Positions 50,702 through 59,128 of a DNA stretch of 64,000 nucleotides are shown piece by piece. The notes beneath the pieces were generated by a model that was given only the letters and a program-made list of their open reading frames with translations, searched no databases and was not told where the DNA came from. This stretch comes from Maricaulis sp. (GTDB lineage: Bacteria; Pseudomonadota; Alphaproteobacteria; Caulobacterales; Maricaulaceae). Where the stretch lies: contig NZ_JAEPNI010000002.1 of assembly GCF_017643475.1 (NCBI RefSeq), positions 434,001 to 498,000 of the forward strand, in the 5' to 3' direction. Each line of letters opens with the position of its first letter. The stretch's first letter is position 1. Both the position numbers and the translations under genes were made by a program.

Positions 50702-52462
50702 ATGCATCAGGGTCGATCGCATACGCAATTTTGGCCCCTGCCACGGGGCCGGTTCTGGGATCGAGTCTTCGCCTTCGCCAAATTCATCAAGAATAATGGG
50801 CGCTTGCCATCTCGCCAGATGCGCTTGAACGACGTGCTCTACCGGATGAAGACTGACAGGGCCTTTCCGACGCCCCAGCAGGTGCTGACCGCAGACAAGG
50901 AATTGGCCAAGGCGTATGTCGCCGAGCGTGTGGGCCGCGAGCACACTGTGCCGACCCTGGCTATCCTGCGAACGCCGGAAGAGGTCCACAACTTTGACTA
51001 TCCCGAGGTCTGTGTGATCAAGGCGACGCATTCGAGTGGCAAATTCTATATCCGCTACAAGGGTGACCCCATCGATCCGGCGATGATCGCTTCCTGGCTG
51101 GATGATGATTTCTATATGCGCAGCCGCGAGGCCCAGTACCGCCCATTGGAGCGCAAGATCATCGTCGAACCCCTGGTTTTCAACCGGGAGGACCCGGAAG
51201 ATTTCCGATTTTTCTGTTTCAAGGGGAAAGTGCGGGCGATCCTGCATGAACCGAACCACTCCAAGGACCTCGCGCGCTTTTACACCAGACGGTGGGAACC
51301 GCTGGATTGCTCACTGGGCATGCCGGTTCTCAACTCAACCCGACCCGCTCCCGACTGCCTGGAGCCGCTTCTGCGCGATGTCGAACGCCTGGCGAGGGAT
51401 TTCTATTTCGTCCGCATCGATGTGTTCTGCAGGAGAGACGAATACGTGTTCGGGGAGTTGACCCATATTCACGGCAACGCGTCCGAACAATTCCACCCCG
51501 CAGAGGCAGAACAGGAAATGTCACGGCTGATGTTTCAGGGGGCTTCAGCGGAGAATCTGACGCATGCATCGAGGCCCGCACATGCCCCACGATCCAGCCG
51601 TCCGGGCTTCAAGACGCGTCTACGGAACGTGCTGTTCCACCTTCTGCCGGCTTCCGGTTTCGGGGACTGGCTGGCTGGGACGCTCAAATTCGTGTGGACC
51701 CAGGGCCGCCTGCCACGCGACCAGATGCTGTTCAACGATGTGCTCTACCGTATCAAGACCGATGGCACCCTGCGCGATGCCTTGCGCAAGCGCACGACGG
51801 ACAAGGTCGAGGCCAAGTCCTATATCGCCCAGCTGGCAGGACAGCAGCATGTCGTGCCAACTCTGGCGGTGCTGAACACGGCAGACGAGATCCGCAGTTT
51901 CGACTTCCCGCCGATCTGCGTGGTCAAGCCGGCACATTCCAGCCAGCACGTGATCCTGCGCACAGGCGGCGAAGAGATCGACCGCGAGGAGATCGTGGGC
52001 TGGCTCGACGAGGACTATTACCGGATCAGCCGGGAAGCGAACTATCAGGGACTGCCGCCGCGCATTATTGTCGAGACCCTGATCTTTGGTCAGACCGAGC
52101 CTACCGATTACAAGATCTTCTGCCATCGCGGCGAGCCTCGCATGATCCAGTGTGATCTGGATCGCCAGACCCGGCACACACGCCAGCTGTTCGACACGGC
52201 GTGGAATCGCCTGCCGTTCTCGCTGTGTTACGAGGGCACCGACCAGGATCATCCTTGCCCGGCCAATCTGGACGCGCTGCTTGATCTGGCAGGGCGACTG
52301 GCCCAGCCGTTCGAATTCGTGCGCGTTGACCTCTATACTGACGGGACCGCCATTCTTGTTGGCGAGATCACGCACTGCCACGGCAGTGCCAGTGAAGCCT
52401 TCATCCCCCGCTCGGCCGAGCAGCAAGCCTCGCGCCTGATTTTTGGAGCCAAACGCCCGTGA
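50702..52462 (+). CDS. Tandem TupA-like ATP-grasp protein (two fused copies)
   Basis: The 586-residue protein is an internal duplication. Residues about 18-290 and 315-586 align along their length: NNGRLPSRQMRLNDVLYRMKTD with WTQGRLPRDQMLFNDVLYRIKTD (quoted in part), VCVIKATHSSGKF with ICVVKPAHSSQHV, IIVEPLVF with IIVETLIF, and VFGELTHIHGNASEQFHP with LVGEITHCHGSASEAFIP. The pattern is that of the TupA-like ATP-grasp family, which is linked to teichuronopeptide and polysaccharide-linked peptide synthesis. Both copies keep the Lys of the VxKxxHS strand and the E-T-H/GN(S)A end, so both could bind ATP. The ATG at 50702 has AAGGAAG unusually close. A GNAT gene follows with a 4-base overlap. Confidence 0.75.
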   Translation: MHQGRSHTQFWPLPRGRFWDRVFAFAKFIKNNGRLPSRQMRLNDVLYRMKTDRAFPTPQQVLTADKELAKAYVAERVGREHTVPTLAILRTPEEVHNFDYPEVCVIKATHSSGKFYIRYKGDPIDPAMIASWLDDDFYMRSREAQYRPLERKIIVEPLVFNREDPEDFRFFCFKGKVRAILHEPNHSKDLARFYTRRWEPLDCSLGMPVLNSTRPAPDCLEPLLRDVERLARDFYFVRIDVFCRRDEYVFGELTHIHGNASEQFHPAEAEQEMSRLMFQGASAENLTHASRPAHAPRSSRPGFKTRLRNVLFHLLPASGFGDWLAGTLKFVWTQGRLPRDQMLFNDVLYRIKTDGTLRDALRKRTTDKVEAKSYIAQLAGQQHVVPTLAVLNTADEIRSFDFPPICVVKPAHSSQHVILRTGGEEIDREEIVGWLDEDYYRISREANYQGLPPRIIVETLIFGQTEPTDYKIFCHRGEPRMIQCDLDRQTRHTRQLFDTAWNRLPFSLCYEGTDQDHPCPANLDALLDLAGRLAQPFEFVRVDLYTDGTAILVGEITHCHGSASEAFIPRSAEQQASRLIFGAKRP

Positions 52463-53027: not shown

Positions 53028-53963
53028 CTAGAAGTCGGTGATGGAACTCACCGATACAGAGTTGCCGATGGCGGCTGCGGTTGCCGAGACATCACCGCTC
53101 ACATCCGCAATCGTCGCGTTCGCAACAGCGCCGGTATAGGCATTGTTCAACTGCGTGGAATTGATGTTCACATCAGCCGTATTCGGCAGTGTGGAAACGC
53201 TGAGCGAGTTGGAGATCGCCGCCGTCGTCGAAGTGACATCGCCCGCAACATCCTCAACACCAACGTTGGAATAGGCGCGCGGGTCGATATTCGTGGTCTG
53301 GTAGTTATTGACATTCGCCCAGTCGGTGGACTCGATCTGGAACGAGGCGGAGTTTGCAATTGCCGCCGACGTCAGGGCGACCTCGCCCGTCACGTTCTCG
53401 ACATGACCATTCAGTTCGGATACGGCATCACCACGGAAAAACTGGCGATTGTTCAGGTTGGCGCCCGAACCGGCGACTTCAACAGACAGCGAGTTACCGA
53501 TCGCAGCGGCCGTACCGCTTACATCTCCGGCGACACCGTCAACACCGATATTGAGGTCCGCATCGAAATTGCCAATGGCGGCCTGGTAGTTGTTGACGGA
53601 TGCATAATCACCTTCGGCAGCAATGCTGGCGGAGTTTCCAATGGCAGCCGCCGTCGTTGAGACATTGCCAGTCACACCGTCGATGTCAGCGTTCAGTTCC
53701 GCCGCCGCACCGCGGATCGTGTACTGCGCATTGCGGATCTGGGCGTCACCGGCCACATCCGCGGAGAAGGAATTGTTGATCGCCGCAGCGGTCAACGAGA
53801 CCTCACCATTGATGTTCTCGATGTCGGAGTTGAGCTGCGCACGCGCCTGTGCCCAGTTTGACTGAACATTGTTGATCGTGCGGTCCTGGGCGACCGCTGT
53901 TCCAGCGAAAGCAGCAAGGGCGAGTGCGGACGCGGCGTACTTATAAAGAGTCTTGGTTGTCAT
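53028..53963 (-). CDS. Secreted six-repeat protein, HfaD-like holdfast anchor candidate (copy 1)
   Basis: The 311-residue product has a signal peptide (about 1-25, ending AVAQ) and then six repeats of 46-49 residues. Each repeat has the core VxGxVxxTAAAIGNSxS; the Ser after Asn falls at 65, 111, 158, 205, 253 and 302. Between the cores lie Asn- and Gln-rich segments (VNNYQ, NLNNRQ). No cysteine, membrane segment or enzyme motif is seen, so it is probably a beta-structured extracellular fibre or anchor protein. The name HfaD-like rests on its place beside hfaA-hfaB and on its repeat nature. ATG 53963 follows AAGGAT. It diverges from hfaA copy 1. Confidence 0.6.
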   Translation of the reverse strand: MTTKTLYKYAASALALAAFAGTAVAQDRTINNVQSNWAQARAQLNSDIENINGEVSLTAAAINNSFSADVAGDAQIRNAQYTIRGAAAELNADIDGVTGNVSTTAAAIGNSASIAAEGDYASVNNYQAAIGNFDADLNIGVDGVAGDVSGTAAAIGNSLSVEVAGSGANLNNRQFFRGDAVSELNGHVENVTGEVALTSAAIANSASFQIESTDWANVNNYQTTNIDPRAYSNVGVEDVAGDVTSTTAAISNSLSVSTLPNTADVNINSTQLNNAYTGAVANATIADVSGDVSATAAAIGNSVSVSSITDF

Positions 53964-54527
53964 GTGTGGATCCTTCCAACTTGATGTTCGCCGAACCCCC
54001 GTCCGGCAGCACCTGGAAAGTCGCAATTGACGGCCCACCCAATTCGTAACCGATACGTTAAGCTTTACTGGGGGTTAAAATACTTCATCGTATTAAAAAC
54101 AAATACGAATTTTGCCCGCAATCATCGGCCGTCGAGGAAATGGTTAAAAAGATCAAGTTTTCGCGGCAAAATTAACTCAAATTTCGGCACACAATATTTT
54201 AATTTGTTTCATTCGGGCACATCGTTTGGTTGATCAAGTCTTAAGATTTCGATCGTGCCAATTTGAACTGTTTCATATTTTTCCCACTCAATTCATAGCC
54301 GTAATAAGAATATTCAACTCGCGCACCAGGCGACAAAATCTGTAGAATTTTATCTATCTCGGCTTATTCTCAGGTGAATATTTACGAAGACTTAACCTTA
54401 ACGAAATATCGCGAAATCACTCAACTGGTTGTTTTTATTAAAAATTGAATCAAATTACAGTGCGGACGCTCTCCTGCTGGCCCCCTCGTTGCAGCGTGGT
54501 GGTCAAGTTTTTATTTTGGAGCGCAAA
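53964..54527. promoter_or_regulatory. AT-rich divergent region of the first holdfast module
   Basis: These 564 bases between the repeat gene and hfaA are strikingly AT-rich for this genome. They hold TTAA half-sites (54058-54061 region, 54074-54077 region, and TTAACCTTAAC near 54392-54402) and one GANTC (54447-54451) preceded by TTTTTAT (54432-54438). A short frame from 54027 has no family resemblance. Both divergent promoters must lie here, and CtrA/CcrM-type control is possible. Low GC may also reflect recent acquisition. Confidence 0.5.
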
Positions 54528-54950
54528 ATGAGTTACCCACTATATTATATAGCTCTTGTGGGCGCCCTGGCCGCCAGCATGCCTGCGAACGCCCAGTCGA
54601 ACGCGCAACAGGGCACACCGCAGACCCAGCCCTATGGCATGAATGCCGGCGACGCCTCGCGCCCCTACACGCCACCGGCCCGGGACGAGAACGGCAATCG
54701 CATTGTCATAAACGGCCAGGTGATCGGGTCCGGTACATCCAATCCGGCGCGCCGCTCCGGCAGCATCGCCAGCCCGGGCGGATCCACCCTGCCGAACTCC
54801 ACGCTGGGTGCAGCCGGTGTCACGGCCGTCAGCATCGGTAACAGCGTCTCGATCAACGGCACGTTTGGCAGCACGATCATCATCAACCAGACCAATAACG
54901 CATCGCAGACGGTCAATGTGAATGGTACCGAACAGGACGGGGGGAACTGA
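54528..54950 (+). CDS. hfaA: Holdfast anchor protein HfaA (copy 1)
   Basis: This small secreted protein of 140 residues has a signal peptide (about 1-23, ending NAQS) and a Pro/Gly-rich middle. The shared motif RDENGNRIVINGQ lies at about 52-64, and the C-terminal segment VSIGNSVSINGTFGSTIIIN at 101-120 is followed by QTNNASQTVNVNG. The last part resembles curlin-type Gln/Asn strands, in keeping with HfaA being a surface protein exported by HfaB in Caulobacter. ATG 54528 follows TTGGAG. hfaB starts one base after its stop. Confidence 0.75.
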   Translation: MSYPLYYIALVGALAASMPANAQSNAQQGTPQTQPYGMNAGDASRPYTPPARDENGNRIVINGQVIGSGTSNPARRSGSIASPGGSTLPNSTLGAAGVTAVSIGNSVSINGTFGSTIIINQTNNASQTVNVNGTEQDGGN

Positions 54951-54951
54951 G

Positions 54952-56178
54952 ATGTCGCGATTGATCGCCCCGCTGCTCAGCGCGCTCACCCTTTCGGCCT
55001 GCGCCACAAGCATTGACCCGAACGAGCCGGTCGCCCATGTCCAGCCCTTGTCGGGGAGCCCGGTGATGGAAGTCACCAGCGACTACAGCGCCGCCCTGCA
55101 ATGCCTGTCAGATTATGCACGCGCTCAGCCCTATCCGGCACCGCGTGTTGCGGTAGGTCACATCTCTGACCTTACCGGAGCAGAAGACTATCTATCGGGT
55201 CGTCGCCTGACGCAGGGTGCAACGCTGATGGCAATTACAGCGACGTCGGAAGCCGGCATGCGTCTGGTTGAGCGTTTCGACATGGGCGTGGTCCAGGTCG
55301 AGCTGGACTATGCCCAGAGCGGTCTGCTGCGCGATGCGCCAAATGTCCTGCGCACGGTTCAACAGGGACAAATGGAGGGCGCCGATCTTTATCTCGTAGG
55401 CGGTATCACCGAGTTCAATCCGAATATCCGCTCCAGCGGCACCAATGCCTTCGCCAATACCAGCGGAGAAACCGGTGGCGCCCTGGCTGTCGGTGGCAGC
55501 GACTATGTCGTCGATGTCGGCATCGACCTGCGCCTGATTGATGTCCGCTCTACCGAAGTCCTCGCCGTCCGCTCCCTGCGCAAGCAGATCCGCGGCCGAG
55601 AGGTTGAGGCCGGTATTTACGCCTTCCTTGATGGCACCGTGCTGGATATCGGCGGCGGCGAACGGGCACTGGAACCGGTTCAGACCGCTGTACGCAGCAT
55701 GATCGACCGCGCAGTCTTCGAGTTCATGGGCATGCTCTATGATCTGGAATCGGGATCCTGCGTGGGGGGCCAGCCCGCCATCGCGATCCAGCGCCAGACC
55801 GCGGCGGCTGCGCCTGCCGCGCAGCCCGCTCCACAACAGCAACAAATGGCCAACACCGCAGCGCCGGTGCAGACCCAATTGCCCGAGGCACAATTGCCGC
55901 CCGCCAACGGGTATGGCCTGCACATCGCATCGCAGCACACCGTCTGGCAGGCCAACCAGGACTGGCGTGAGCTGCGGGTCATGTATGCCGATGTCCTGGC
56001 CGGACGCGACGCACGGATCACCCGTCTGCAAACGCCGGATCGCGGTGTCGTCTTCCGACTGCTTGCTGGCAGCTGGCAAAACGAGACCGAGGCTTCCGGC
56101 GCCTGCGAACAGATCCGCGCGCGCGGCGGGGATTGCCGTGTCACCGCCTATCAGGGATTGCCGGTCATGCGATCCTAG
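54952..56178 (+). CDS. hfaB: Holdfast secretion lipoprotein HfaB, CsgG-like (copy 1)
   Basis: HfaB is thought to form an outer-membrane pore for HfaA and partner. The 408-residue product has a lipobox (LSAC, Cys17) and a CsgG core: [44 protein letters not shown] (transmembrane hairpin region), [17 protein letters not shown], and [18 protein letters not shown]. After a Gln/Pro/Ala-rich linker (about 285-318), residues 320-408 resemble a SPOR domain (FRLLAGSWQNETEASGACEQ, RGGDCRV). SPOR domains bind denuded peptidoglycan glycans and could localise the pore. A strong GGGGGAA ribosome-binding site precedes the ATG. Confidence 0.85.
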   Translation: MSRLIAPLLSALTLSACATSIDPNEPVAHVQPLSGSPVMEVTSDYSAALQCLSDYARAQPYPAPRVAVGHISDLTGAEDYLSGRRLTQGATLMAITATSEAGMRLVERFDMGVVQVELDYAQSGLLRDAPNVLRTVQQGQMEGADLYLVGGITEFNPNIRSSGTNAFANTSGETGGALAVGGSDYVVDVGIDLRLIDVRSTEVLAVRSLRKQIRGREVEAGIYAFLDGTVLDIGGGERALEPVQTAVRSMIDRAVFEFMGMLYDLESGSCVGGQPAIAIQRQTAAAAPAAQPAPQQQQMANTAAPVQTQLPEAQLPPANGYGLHIASQHTVWQANQDWRELRVMYADVLAGRDARITRLQTPDRGVVFRLLAGSWQNETEASGACEQIRARGGDCRVTAYQGLPVMRS

Positions 56179-56215
56179 GCAGTAGCGACCTCAGGTTTGC
56201 GATCGATGGCGAGCC

Positions 56216-57175
56216 CTAGAAGCCGTCAGTCGCTATGGTGAGCGAGTTGCCAATCGCAGCCGCCGTGGCTGCCACATCATCACCGATCGCCCCGACACGT
56301 ATGTCGGCAACCGCGCCGACATAAGCCGTATTGCCCTGTGCCAGGCTGGCATCCATTTGGGACAACCTGGGCAGCGAGTTGGCGGAGAACGAGTTGCCGA
56401 TGGCCGCTGCGGTTACATCTACGTCATCTTCAACCTTGCGAACGATAGAGCTGAGCTCCGCGAAACGCGCACCTGTATTGGTTTGTTCCGCATCTATACC
56501 AACCCGGCGCACTCGTTCGAGATCCAAACTCGCCGAATTACCAATGGCCGCCGTCGTAAGGCTAACATCCTCTCCGACCCGCGATATCCGGGCATACATC
56601 TCGGCAGTCGAAGGCGCGCGAGCGACCTGTTCAATCCCCAGCTCAGCACGCCGAATCCGGTTCACCGAGACTGATGCGGAATTGCTCAGTGCCGCACTGG
56701 TGCCGGCAACATCGCCGCCAACACGCTGCAGCTGATACAGGTTCAGATCGGCCAGCGTCGCACCGTCAGCAACCTGGTTGACCTCAACGTCCGACCGACG
56801 ACGCCTTGCGGCGCGGACCGCGCCATCCAGGTCGACTGAAAGCGAGTTGCCGATCGCTGCGGCCGTCGAGGAAACACTCTCCCCCACACCAACGACAGAG
56901 ATATCGCTGATCGCAGAAGCACCCTGTCGCGCAATCTGGGAGACATCGAGCCCCACACTTCGGTTGAGCGAGACTGAGGCCGAGTTGTTGATGGCCGCAG
57001 TCGTCAAATCGACATTTTCGCCTATCCGCCGTATGCCGGCATTCAACTCGGCACGCGTGTAAGCCCAACTATCCTGTGTGGCATCGACATTGCGCGATTG
57101 CGCGTGCGCACCGCCAGCATCCAACAAAAAAACTCCAGCCAGTACCAAGAGCGCGACTTTTCGGGCGTTCCGCAT
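56216..57175 (-). CDS. Secreted six-repeat protein, HfaD-like holdfast anchor candidate (copy 2)
   Basis: The 319-residue product has a signal peptide (about 1-26, ending AHAQ) and six repeats with the core GEDVxxTAAAIGNSxS; the Ser is at 65, 111, 166, 214, 262 and 311. The first two positions coincide exactly with those of copy 1. The third interval is longer (55) owing to an Arg-rich insert (AARRRRSD), and copy 2 is more basic than copy 1 throughout. It ends ATDGF, and copy 1 ends SITDF. It is convergent to hfaB copy 1 and divergent from hfaA copy 2, repeating the arrangement of copy 1. Confidence 0.6.
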   Translation of the reverse strand: MRNARKVALLVLAGVFLLDAGGAHAQSRNVDATQDSWAYTRAELNAGIRRIGENVDLTTAAINNSASVSLNRSVGLDVSQIARQGASAISDISVVGVGESVSSTAAAIGNSLSVDLDGAVRAARRRRSDVEVNQVADGATLADLNLYQLQRVGGDVAGTSAALSNSASVSVNRIRRAELGIEQVARAPSTAEMYARISRVGEDVSLTTAAIGNSASLDLERVRRVGIDAEQTNTGARFAELSSIVRKVEDDVDVTAAAIGNSFSANSLPRLSQMDASLAQGNTAYVGAVADIRVGAIGDDVAATAAAIGNSLTIATDGF

Positions 57176-57531
57176 TTCGCTTTCCCCTTTTTTCAAGTTT
57201 AACGACGCTCGATAGACCTCAAAATTGAGCCCGGTCTCGGGGGAGGGTGGCGAGCTGAACAAAATCGATTAAATTCAACGCCTTGAAGTATATGTTTGGC
57301 GCCCCCTTCCACTCCCCAGAATGGCCGCCAACTCATATCGCATCGGTTCGCTTGCAAATTGCGAGGCGGCCATTTGGCGAAATGCGAACAACACTCCAGC
57401 ACTCAACGTTATCGCAGCGCACCCACACAAACCAAGCCATTGTTTTAAATGTATTTTTATGAATCAAAAGCACTGGAGCAACGATCGGACCTGCTCATGC
57501 ACCCTCCTGATTGAAGGTCTTAGGAGGAAAC
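57176..57531. promoter_or_regulatory. Divergent region of the second holdfast module
   Basis: These 356 bases contain a 9-bp inverted repeat, ATGGCCGCC at 57321-57329 and GGCGGCCAT at 57365-57373, enclosing a smaller possible stem. One GANTC lies at 57461-57465 directly after TTTTTAT (57454-57460), the same TTTTTAT / GAATCAAA elements as upstream of hfaA copy 1. A strong TAGGAGG ribosome-binding site precedes hfaA. No other gene was found. Confidence 0.45.
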
Positions 57532-57948
57532 ATGTTCGCAACCAATGCTCTGTTACTATCCGCATGCTTGGCGCTCGGGTCTTCGGCCGCCGCTCAGGTT
57601 TCTGCTGGCCATCCGCAGACCGAGCCCTGGGCTCAAATGATGCGAGTCTATGAAGCGCCCTTCCATCCCTACGCGAGAGACGCATCCAACAATCGCATCA
57701 TCATCAACGGCGAGGCGGTCACGCTCCGCTCGCCGGGGGGACTATCGCACCATTCCCATCGCCTGCCCTCACCGGGGGAGCATATCGCGCTTCGGGGTCC
57801 CCGGGCGATCGCCGTAGGCAATTCCGTCAACATCACCGGAGCTGTGTTCAGCACAATCGTCATCCACCAGATCAATTCCGGAGACCAAAACGCCACCGTT
57901 GTGAACCACCACCAAGGACGCTCCGATGACGATCAACCCAATCCGTAA
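57532..57948 (+). CDS. hfaA: Holdfast anchor protein HfaA (copy 2)
   Basis: This 138-residue secreted paralogue of copy 1 has a signal peptide (1-21, ending AAAQ), PQTEPW, RDASNNRIIINGE at about 49-61, a His-rich middle (LSHHSHR), and IAVGNSVNITGAVFSTIVIH at 93-112. Only the framework motifs are shared with copy 1, so the two have diverged and may not be interchangeable. The start has an excellent ribosome-binding site (GGAGG). Its last 23 bases overlap the start of hfaB copy 2, unlike copy 1, where the genes are one base apart. Confidence 0.7.
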   Translation: MFATNALLLSACLALGSSAAAQVSAGHPQTEPWAQMMRVYEAPFHPYARDASNNRIIINGEAVTLRSPGGLSHHSHRLPSPGEHIALRGPRAIAVGNSVNITGAVFSTIVIHQINSGDQNATVVNHHQGRSDDDQPNP

Positions 57949-59128
57949 TATCCTGGCCAGCGCCTTTGGAGCAGGGCTGATTGCAGGCTGTGCATCGACC
58001 ATCGACCCCAATCGCCCTGTTGCCCATGTTACGCCGCTTCAAGGCAGCGAAATCGTCGGCGCGGACACCGAATACACACAGCGCCTGGCCTGTTTGGCTG
58101 GTTTTGTAGGTCAACAGACTTTTGAAGCGCCGCGCGTTTCGGTAGGCCATATCAACGACCTCACCGGAACGCACGACTATTTTAATGGCCGCCGGCTGAC
58201 ACAAGGCGCGACGCTGATGGCCATGACCGCGATCGGGCAGTCCGGACTAAGATTGGTCGAGCGCTATGACATGGGCATTCCCCAGGTCGAACTTGAACTG
58301 TCCCAGTCCGGGCTGGTGCGAGACGCTCCGGACCAGCTGCGCCGGATCGAGCAGGGCCAGATCCAGGGGTCTGACCTTTACCTCGTCGGCGGCATTACCG
58401 AATACAATCCCAACATCAGATCCGGCGGCAATAATGCGTTCGCCAATACGGCAGACCGTGATGGCATCGGCGTGACCTTGCGCAACAGCGATTACATCAT
58501 CGATGTGGGCATTGATCTGAGATTGATTGATGTGCGCTCGACTGAAGTCGTCAGCATCCGGGCATTTCGCAAGCAGATCCGCGGTCGAGAAGTCGAGGCC
58601 GGCGTTTTTGCTTTCCTCGATGGCTCAATCATCGATATTGGCGGCGGGGAAAGAGCACTTGAACCCGTACAGACCGCGGTGCGCTCGATGATCGATCGTG
58701 CCGTCTGGGAATTTGTTCTGGAGCTCTACAATCTGCCCGAAACCTATTGTGATCGACAGTACGCTTCCTACGCTGAAACCCGTTCTGTCCCGACCTCCGC
58801 CGGCTCATATTCCCCAGGCCCAAGGTCGGCCGCGTCGTATGATCTGGATGTCGCTCCACACCCGCACTTCGCGATACACCTGGCGTCGTATGGTTCTCAA
58901 ACAGCGGCGCGCTACGGATGGCTTGAATTCAGATATCGATATCCCGAGCTGCTCGGGCAACGTTCAGCACGCCTCACAACAATCTCTCGAGACGCCATTG
59001 AGCCCTTTCATCGGCTGCAAGCGGGGGCATGGCCAACACGCGGCGCAGCCGAACGGGCATGCAGAATACTACATAGGGACGGTTCATATTGTGAAGTGAC
59101 CGAGCTGGCGGGCGAGCCGCTAGGCTAG
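57926..59128 (+). CDS. hfaB: Holdfast secretion lipoprotein HfaB, CsgG-like (copy 2)
   Basis: The 400-residue paralogue has a lipobox (LIAGC, Cys22), [16 protein letters not shown] and a CsgG core that matches copy 1 nearly word for word ([66 protein letters not shown]). The linker is short and Ser/Pro-rich instead of Gln-rich, and the C-terminus (about 313-400, [36 protein letters not shown]) is SPOR-like. ATG 57926 follows AAGGACG. The stop overlaps the stop of convergent accA in CTAG. Confidence 0.82.

Follow-up and report, generated by a model that had tools for sequence, protein, structure and literature searches.

The holdfast anchor proteins HfaA, HfaB and HfaD are best known from Caulobacter, where the formation of HfaA multimers is described as dependent on HfaD, and HfaA and HfaD as reaching the outer membrane only with HfaB (PMC6707917). 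The SPOR domain is described as binding denuded glycan at the septum (PMC6895207). The present analysis concerns positions 53028-59128 of a 64,000-nucleotide stretch of Maricaulis sp. DNA (hereafter the window, meaning the whole of that stretch), where two adjacent modules, each encoding an HfaD-like repeat protein (D), a small HfaA-like protein (A) and an HfaB/CsgG-like lipoprotein (B), lie between a GNAT gene and accA in the order D1 (-), A1 (+), B1 (+), D2 (-), A2 (+), B2 (+). We regard it as moderately probable that the modules form a tandem pair of long-diverged copies of an Hfa-like secretion module, which is a paralogue of the canonical holdfast anchor and separate from it, and that they make a curli-like adhesive surface layer. 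No earlier report of a SPOR-bearing HfaB or CsgG, or of tandem hfa modules, was found in the titles and abstract openings of the mainly open literature.

Family assignment and divergence of the two modules

A preliminary description of the window had proposed the twofold gene order, the homology to HfaA, HfaB and HfaD, and a rearranged order with a divergent putative HfaD in both modules, all of which were borne out by the open reading frames, their strands and the profile searches. All six proteins match the holdfast anchor families of NCBIfam, and all six fall under the curated cut-offs (HfaD, NF037936, 100 bits; HfaA, NF037934, 50 bits; HfaB, NF037935, 300 bits). B1 and B2 score 278.3 bits (5.1e-83) and 267.5 bits (9.7e-80), respectively, against the HfaB family, and both exceed the cut-off of 20.8 bits for the CsgG family of Pfam (69.9 bits, 2.5e-19 and 68.9 bits, 4.8e-19). 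The products at 54528 and 57532, whose kinship with HfaA had been marked for checking, are related to it (3.6e-8 and 4.7e-4), yet remain under the cut-off of 50 bits. No Pfam match to curlin repeats was obtained in A1, A2, D1 or D2 at E <= 1.

Three CsgG matches are present in the window genome, the third being the HfaB of a canonical HfaA-HfaB-HfaD set on contig C7 (about 1470735-1473292, minus strand), which the preliminary description had overlooked and whose members all exceed the NCBIfam cut-offs (71.8, 411.1 and 126.5 bits, respectively). The module HfaBs form a separate clade (21 of the 46 tree rows, branch length 1.76, support 100/100) in a tree of 21 of the 26 high-scoring copies and 25 other HfaB rows, while the copies of genomes G259, G142, G174, G190 and G126 were assigned to the clade by score only, outside the tree. 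Since the canonical set is separate and above the cut-offs, and the module HfaBs belong to another clade, the data do not support a view of the modules as copies of the canonical operon or as the main holdfast anchors.

Six motifs of the T-x-A-A-I-x-N-S type occur in each repeat protein, with a spacing of 46-49 residues in D1 and 46-55 residues in D2; in 2000 shuffles of D1, the only sequence shuffled, the motif count averaged 0.02 and never exceeded 1. The AlphaFold model of D1 is an all-beta, solenoid-like chain (predicted local distance difference test, pLDDT, 88.9), for which the PDB holds no fold match at E <= 0.001, CsgA and FapC appearing only at E about 0.8-1. A1 carries a single repeat-like unit near the C-terminus, and profile comparison pairs it with the repeat of D (E 1.2e-4). 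The stretch common to HfaA and the HfaD repeat reads A-IGNSV ... Q-N, and a like stretch is visible by eye in the canonical HfaA and HfaD.

B1 and B2 are identical at 155 of 236 core positions (65.7%) and at 27.4% of the tail, D1 and D2 at 38.5% and A1 and A2 at 35.6%. Thus, the clear divergence described earlier for HfaA and the repeat proteins stands, while the divergence of the HfaB core can be called little only in relative terms. B1 groups with G056 within the Maricaulis clade (100/99), and B2 is placed outside the Maricaulis B1 clade but adjacent to it, with weak support (88/70) and a branch of 0.87; the A2 and D2 branches measure 2.09 and 3.81, their placement in the A and D trees being unsure. 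A recent tandem duplication was considered and rejected, as a B1+B2 clade fails the approximately unbiased test (p 0.00689), though the B2 branch is long. The age of the pair may be explained either by an old duplication with losses, by fast divergence or by import from an unsampled relative. Purifying selection acts on module 1 in comparison with G056 and G066 (ratio of non-synonymous to synonymous substitution rates, dN/dS, 0.05-0.10 for B1, 0.085 for D1 and 0.19-0.26 for A1; dS 0.6-1.7), with HfaA as the least constrained gene, and module 2 has no close orthologue for comparison.

Module 2 might also be no second working system at all: it may have been acquired from a relative outside the sample, or it may be a rapidly evolving copy in the process of being lost. 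It is found only in the window genome (G000) among 19 genomes of the genus, has the long branches given above, and shows a GC content at third codon positions of 0.62-0.68 vs 0.68-0.77 in module 1. However, its three reading frames are intact, B2 aligns over the full length with the lipobox cysteine kept, and B2 is placed, though weakly, beside the Maricaulis B1 clade; this explanation is possible but rather doubtful.

Occurrence with and without holdfast synthesis

An HfaB scoring at least 362 bits against the module HfaB profile was identified in 25 of the 398 genomes of the order (26 copies), all other copies scoring at most 307.4 bits, while among 385 class-wide genomes only the window genome reaches the module-HfaB score, the next being 310.0 bits. 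HfaA- and HfaD-like partners lie beside 18 of 21 clade HfaB copies, the exceptions being two contig ends and G108, where no HfaA was found. The window genome also has a holdfast synthesis cluster on contig C4, with HfsG-, HfsH-, Wzy- and Wzz-like genes and an HfsD-like export gene together; the HfsG-like (250.7 bits) and HfsH-like (232.1 bits) products miss their cut-offs (500 and 400 bits, respectively), and the Wzz-like gene is slightly under its Pfam cut-off.

HfsG is present in 241 of the 398 order genomes and in 20 of the 25 module-clade carriers. The five remaining carriers, G179 (single contig), G219, G259, G394 and G380, have one HfaB each, which belongs to the module clade (four by tree, G259 by score). 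Their best scores are 50.4 bits for HfsD vs at least 142.6 bits in 36 of 38 other genomes examined, 33.2 bits for HfsG vs at least 160.2 bits in 37 of 38 others, and 39.0 bits for HfsH vs at least 164.5 bits in 21 of 21 others; none of the three proteins is found in these genomes above generic family level. Because the five genomes have this HfaB only and lack HfsD, HfsG and HfsH, it appears that the module can exist without a holdfast and that the clade is not tied to it.

Among the ten genomes whose only HfaB is of the module clade, five have HfsG and five lack it, vs 196 with and seven without among the 203 remaining genomes with an HfaB (p 5e-5, Fisher test), the genomes not being independent, as the HfsG-lacking ones come from two lineages. 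The seven are G118, G133, G146, G148, G220, G353 (63% complete) and G366. The five genomes of the group f4 g22 among the ten may have lost canonical hfaB at assembly breaks, because ends of hfaB lie at contig edges in G126 (C61:36198-36278 and C63:5-85), which suggests a duplicated canonical hfaB lost in this manner; G182, a single-contig genome of the same group, has two further HfaB copies of 286-287 bits. Separately, 40 of the 398 order genomes (such as G092, G008, G011, G012 and G018) have HfsG and no HfaB-like match at E <= 1e-30, apparently a case of holdfast-type synthesis without a known anchor.

SPOR end of module HfaB, gene orders and coordinates

A SPOR domain (PF05036) was detected in the last 100 residues of 10 of 10 module HfaBs, B2 included, at E <= 0.05 (best 3.5e-8). 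The ends scanned come from Maricaulis and its sister genus and make up all but one of the 11 copies that the family of the window genome has; the remaining one, from G122, matches a profile built from the HfaB ends themselves. The isolated B1 end scores 23.9 bits (5.3e-5) vs the cut-off of 21, and whole B1 (20.7 bits, 5.2e-4) and whole B2 (15.5 bits, 0.023) stay under it. When whole proteins were scanned, 8 of the 10 members of an alignment (nine module HfaBs and one canonical) matched at E <= 0.05, and 0 of 32 other HfaBs, namely 10 of the module clade from other families, two of the L047/L048 type described below and 20 canonical or other. The AlphaFold model of B1 has a modest overall pLDDT of 66.8, with a b-a-b-b-a-b arrangement at residues 320-398 (block pLDDT 82-93); Foldseek against the PDB returned CsgG as the top match of this model (1.8e-11) and no SPOR structure among the 50 matches listed. 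Within the genus, the SPOR-type HfaB is found in 6 of 19 genomes (7 copies, the window genome alone having two) and the canonical type in 16 of 19, the latter lacking in G119 and G123 (65-69% complete) and in G092 (99% complete). A single origin of the SPOR end was considered and not adopted: the free tree needs two changes, yet a tree that unites the SPOR-bearing HfaBs in one clade is also acceptable (p 0.275).

Gene orders vary within the clade. D and A-B diverge in the window as well as in G004, G052 and those Maricaulis loci that show D (G066, G099, G120, G122), whereas A-B is followed by D on the opposite strand in G394 and G380. The order is B-D-A in G179 and G219, D-A-B in G266, A-B-D in f4 g22 (G162, G254, G182, G134), D-B-D-A on one strand in G072, and D-B in G108. 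The two HfaD-like genes of G072 lie in one locus (L044, 4855-5820 and 9415-10380), the cargo gene being duplicated there too. At the same place, flanked by the secA side and by accA, G066 and G099 have a single module. The G056 contig breaks off inside the module and shows an HfaA-HfaB pair, the HfaB of which is 93% identical to B1 and adjoins accA. Therefore, the additional module of the window is module 2, which lies between B1 and accA.

Table 1. Features of the two-module locus in window coordinates. Likely gene starts (the higher coordinate for D1 and D2, the lower for the other genes) were judged by eye from signal peptides.
Feature	Position	Strand	Remarks
D1, HfaD-like repeat protein	53028..53963	-	NF037936 2.7e-10, 40.1 bits; signal peptide by eye
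D1/A1 divergent intergenic region, AT-rich, GC 0.41	53964..54527	.	no exact TTAA-N7-TTAA box
A1, small HfaA-like secreted protein (predicted)	54528..54950	+	NF037934 3.6e-8, 33.8 bits
B1, HfaB/CsgG-like lipoprotein, C-terminal SPOR within 55876-56175	54952..56178	+	LSAC lipobox by eye
D2, second HfaD-like repeat protein	56216..57175	-	NF037936 9.5e-16, 58.1 bits
D2/A2 divergent intergenic region, GC 0.49	57176..57531	.	
A2, second HfaA-like protein	57532..57948	+	NF037934 4.7e-4, 20.5 bits
B2, second HfaB/CsgG-like lipoprotein	57926..59128	+	IAGC lipobox by eye; weaker C-terminal SPOR within 58826-59125

Control by CtrA was considered and set aside, as none of the seven D/A regions, nor the B/D region of G108 (eight intergenic regions in all), contains an exact TTAA-N7-TTAA box; one-mismatch boxes and single half-sites are present. 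The secA and accA genes beside the Maricaulis modules are housekeeping genes and were discarded as clues to function. Between secA and the GNAT gene, window positions 50702-52462 encode a 586-residue protein with two TupA-like ATP-grasp stretches, which has no counterpart at the same place in loci L042 or L040. Genes for EAL or TPR-EAL proteins (EAL being a cyclic di-GMP phosphodiesterase domain) lie near three of four SPOR-type modules of g5 (L043 990-3566, L044 10583-12292, L046 3493-6081), and histidine kinases near two of the four. A third type of HfaB (L047 7780-10041 and L048 8161-9986, in G026 and G076), with no SPOR and a very long branch, has an HfaD-like partner on the same strand and, in L047, a weak HfaA-like reading frame; its neighbours are a gene for H-NOX (haem-NO-binding) and one for a PAS histidine kinase, a reading frame resembling a response regulator was recognised by eye, and nitric-oxide control of a surface structure is possible at these loci. 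Two adjacent HfaB-like genes are found beside HfaA- and HfaD-like genes in L129 (6299-9541; G377, f3), and several f3 genomes have three or four HfaB matches each.

Proposed function and comparison with known systems

Judged from its family and fold, the module-type HfaB is predicted to be a CsgG-type outer-membrane lipoprotein pore, the SPOR end of which would tether it to denuded peptidoglycan of the division septum and thereby place it at the new pole. Its exported products would be the HfaD-like protein with its beta-solenoid repeats and the small one-repeat HfaA-like protein, and, by analogy with HfaA and HfaD of Caulobacter, the solenoid may template an HfaA-like polymer outside the pore. 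The product is envisaged as a curli-like surface protein layer that may serve in adhesion. A bolder proposal, which we put forward only tentatively, is that of a septum-aimed CsgG-type system with its own SPOR, laying a beta-solenoid or amyloid-like coat at each new pole independently of the holdfast, in two tandem versions with different cargo; the holdfast anchor could then be a relative that was drawn from such a pole-marking protein system to serve polysaccharide.

Several points weigh against a secretion module distinct from the holdfast anchor. A missed NCBIfam cut-off is weak evidence, since HfsG and HfsH of the window genome miss theirs too and the HfsG cut-off is passed by only 20 of 398 genomes. 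HfaA and the HfaD repeat are linked through a single pairwise comparison of profiles (E 1.2e-4, probability 55%), and the five holdfast-free genomes represent only two lineages. As regards the SPOR end, the whole-protein match is marginal (5.2e-4 and 0.023; at most 8 of 9 module HfaBs at E <= 0.05), the 32 control HfaBs were scanned whole and not as isolated ends, and a PDB sequence search with the HfaB end gave DamX only at E 0.39, level with unrelated chains. In a set of 46 sequences searched with the profile built from the ends, the HfaBs of G179 and G219 have only a weak SPOR-like end (E 3.8e-4 and 0.023, respectively), and those of G394 and G380 show no SPOR in the whole-protein scan. Finally, 10 of 10 carriers in the family of the window genome have both HfsG and canonical hfaB.

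The last point, together with the homology of the three families to HfaA, HfaB and HfaD and the synthesis cluster on C4, favours the view, close to that of the preliminary description, that the modules are two extra true holdfast anchors with different surfaces, stages or partners, or acting at another pole, beside the canonical HfaABD. This appears unlikely to us: the module HfaBs lie in a separate clade, the modules fall under three equivalog cut-offs which the other set of the genome passes, and five genomes keep the clade without HfsD, HfsG and HfsH. A grouping of the CsgG-like proteins with a non-holdfast, curli-type system, the outcome named earlier as contrary to an anchor role, is thus seen in part, in the separate clade and the five genomes; in the family of the window genome, where all ten carriers have HfsG and canonical hfaB, a holdfast role may still apply. 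Foldseek also matches FlgT, PelC and HpaA, which have a related fold and are not known to export curli-like subunits; this favours a module HfaB that is no pore but a SPOR-tethered periplasmic ring of the PelC or FlgT kind, with A and D exported in another way. We consider that highly improbable, since CsgG is the best match and the HfaA- and HfaD-like partners accompany most HfaB copies.

Under the preferred reading of a paralogous Hfa-like secretion module, a septal-wall-binding paralogue from a clade also found without holdfast synthesis would show the export of protein fibres naturally uncoupled from the anchoring of polysaccharide, and module HfaB would make pole targeting testable by gain or loss of one domain. 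The modules resemble HfaABD of Caulobacter in having the same three families, with a CsgG-like outer-membrane component, a small HfaA and a repeat HfaD. They differ from it in that the module proteins are under every equivalog cut-off, HfaB has a SPOR end and belongs to a separate clade that occurs also in genomes without HfsD, HfsG and HfsH, and D lies on the opposite strand; the canonical one-strand A-B-D order is absent from the window modules but present in f4 g22 members of the clade. The CsgG domain and fold, the lipobox, and the combination of a repeat protein with a small subunit are shared with curli (CsgG with CsgA and CsgB), although the module A and D proteins have no curlin-repeat match and D1 no PDB fold match at the thresholds given above. 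The C-terminal SPOR domain is shared with the septal proteins FtsN, DamX, DedD and RlpA, but in the modules it is attached to a CsgG-type protein.

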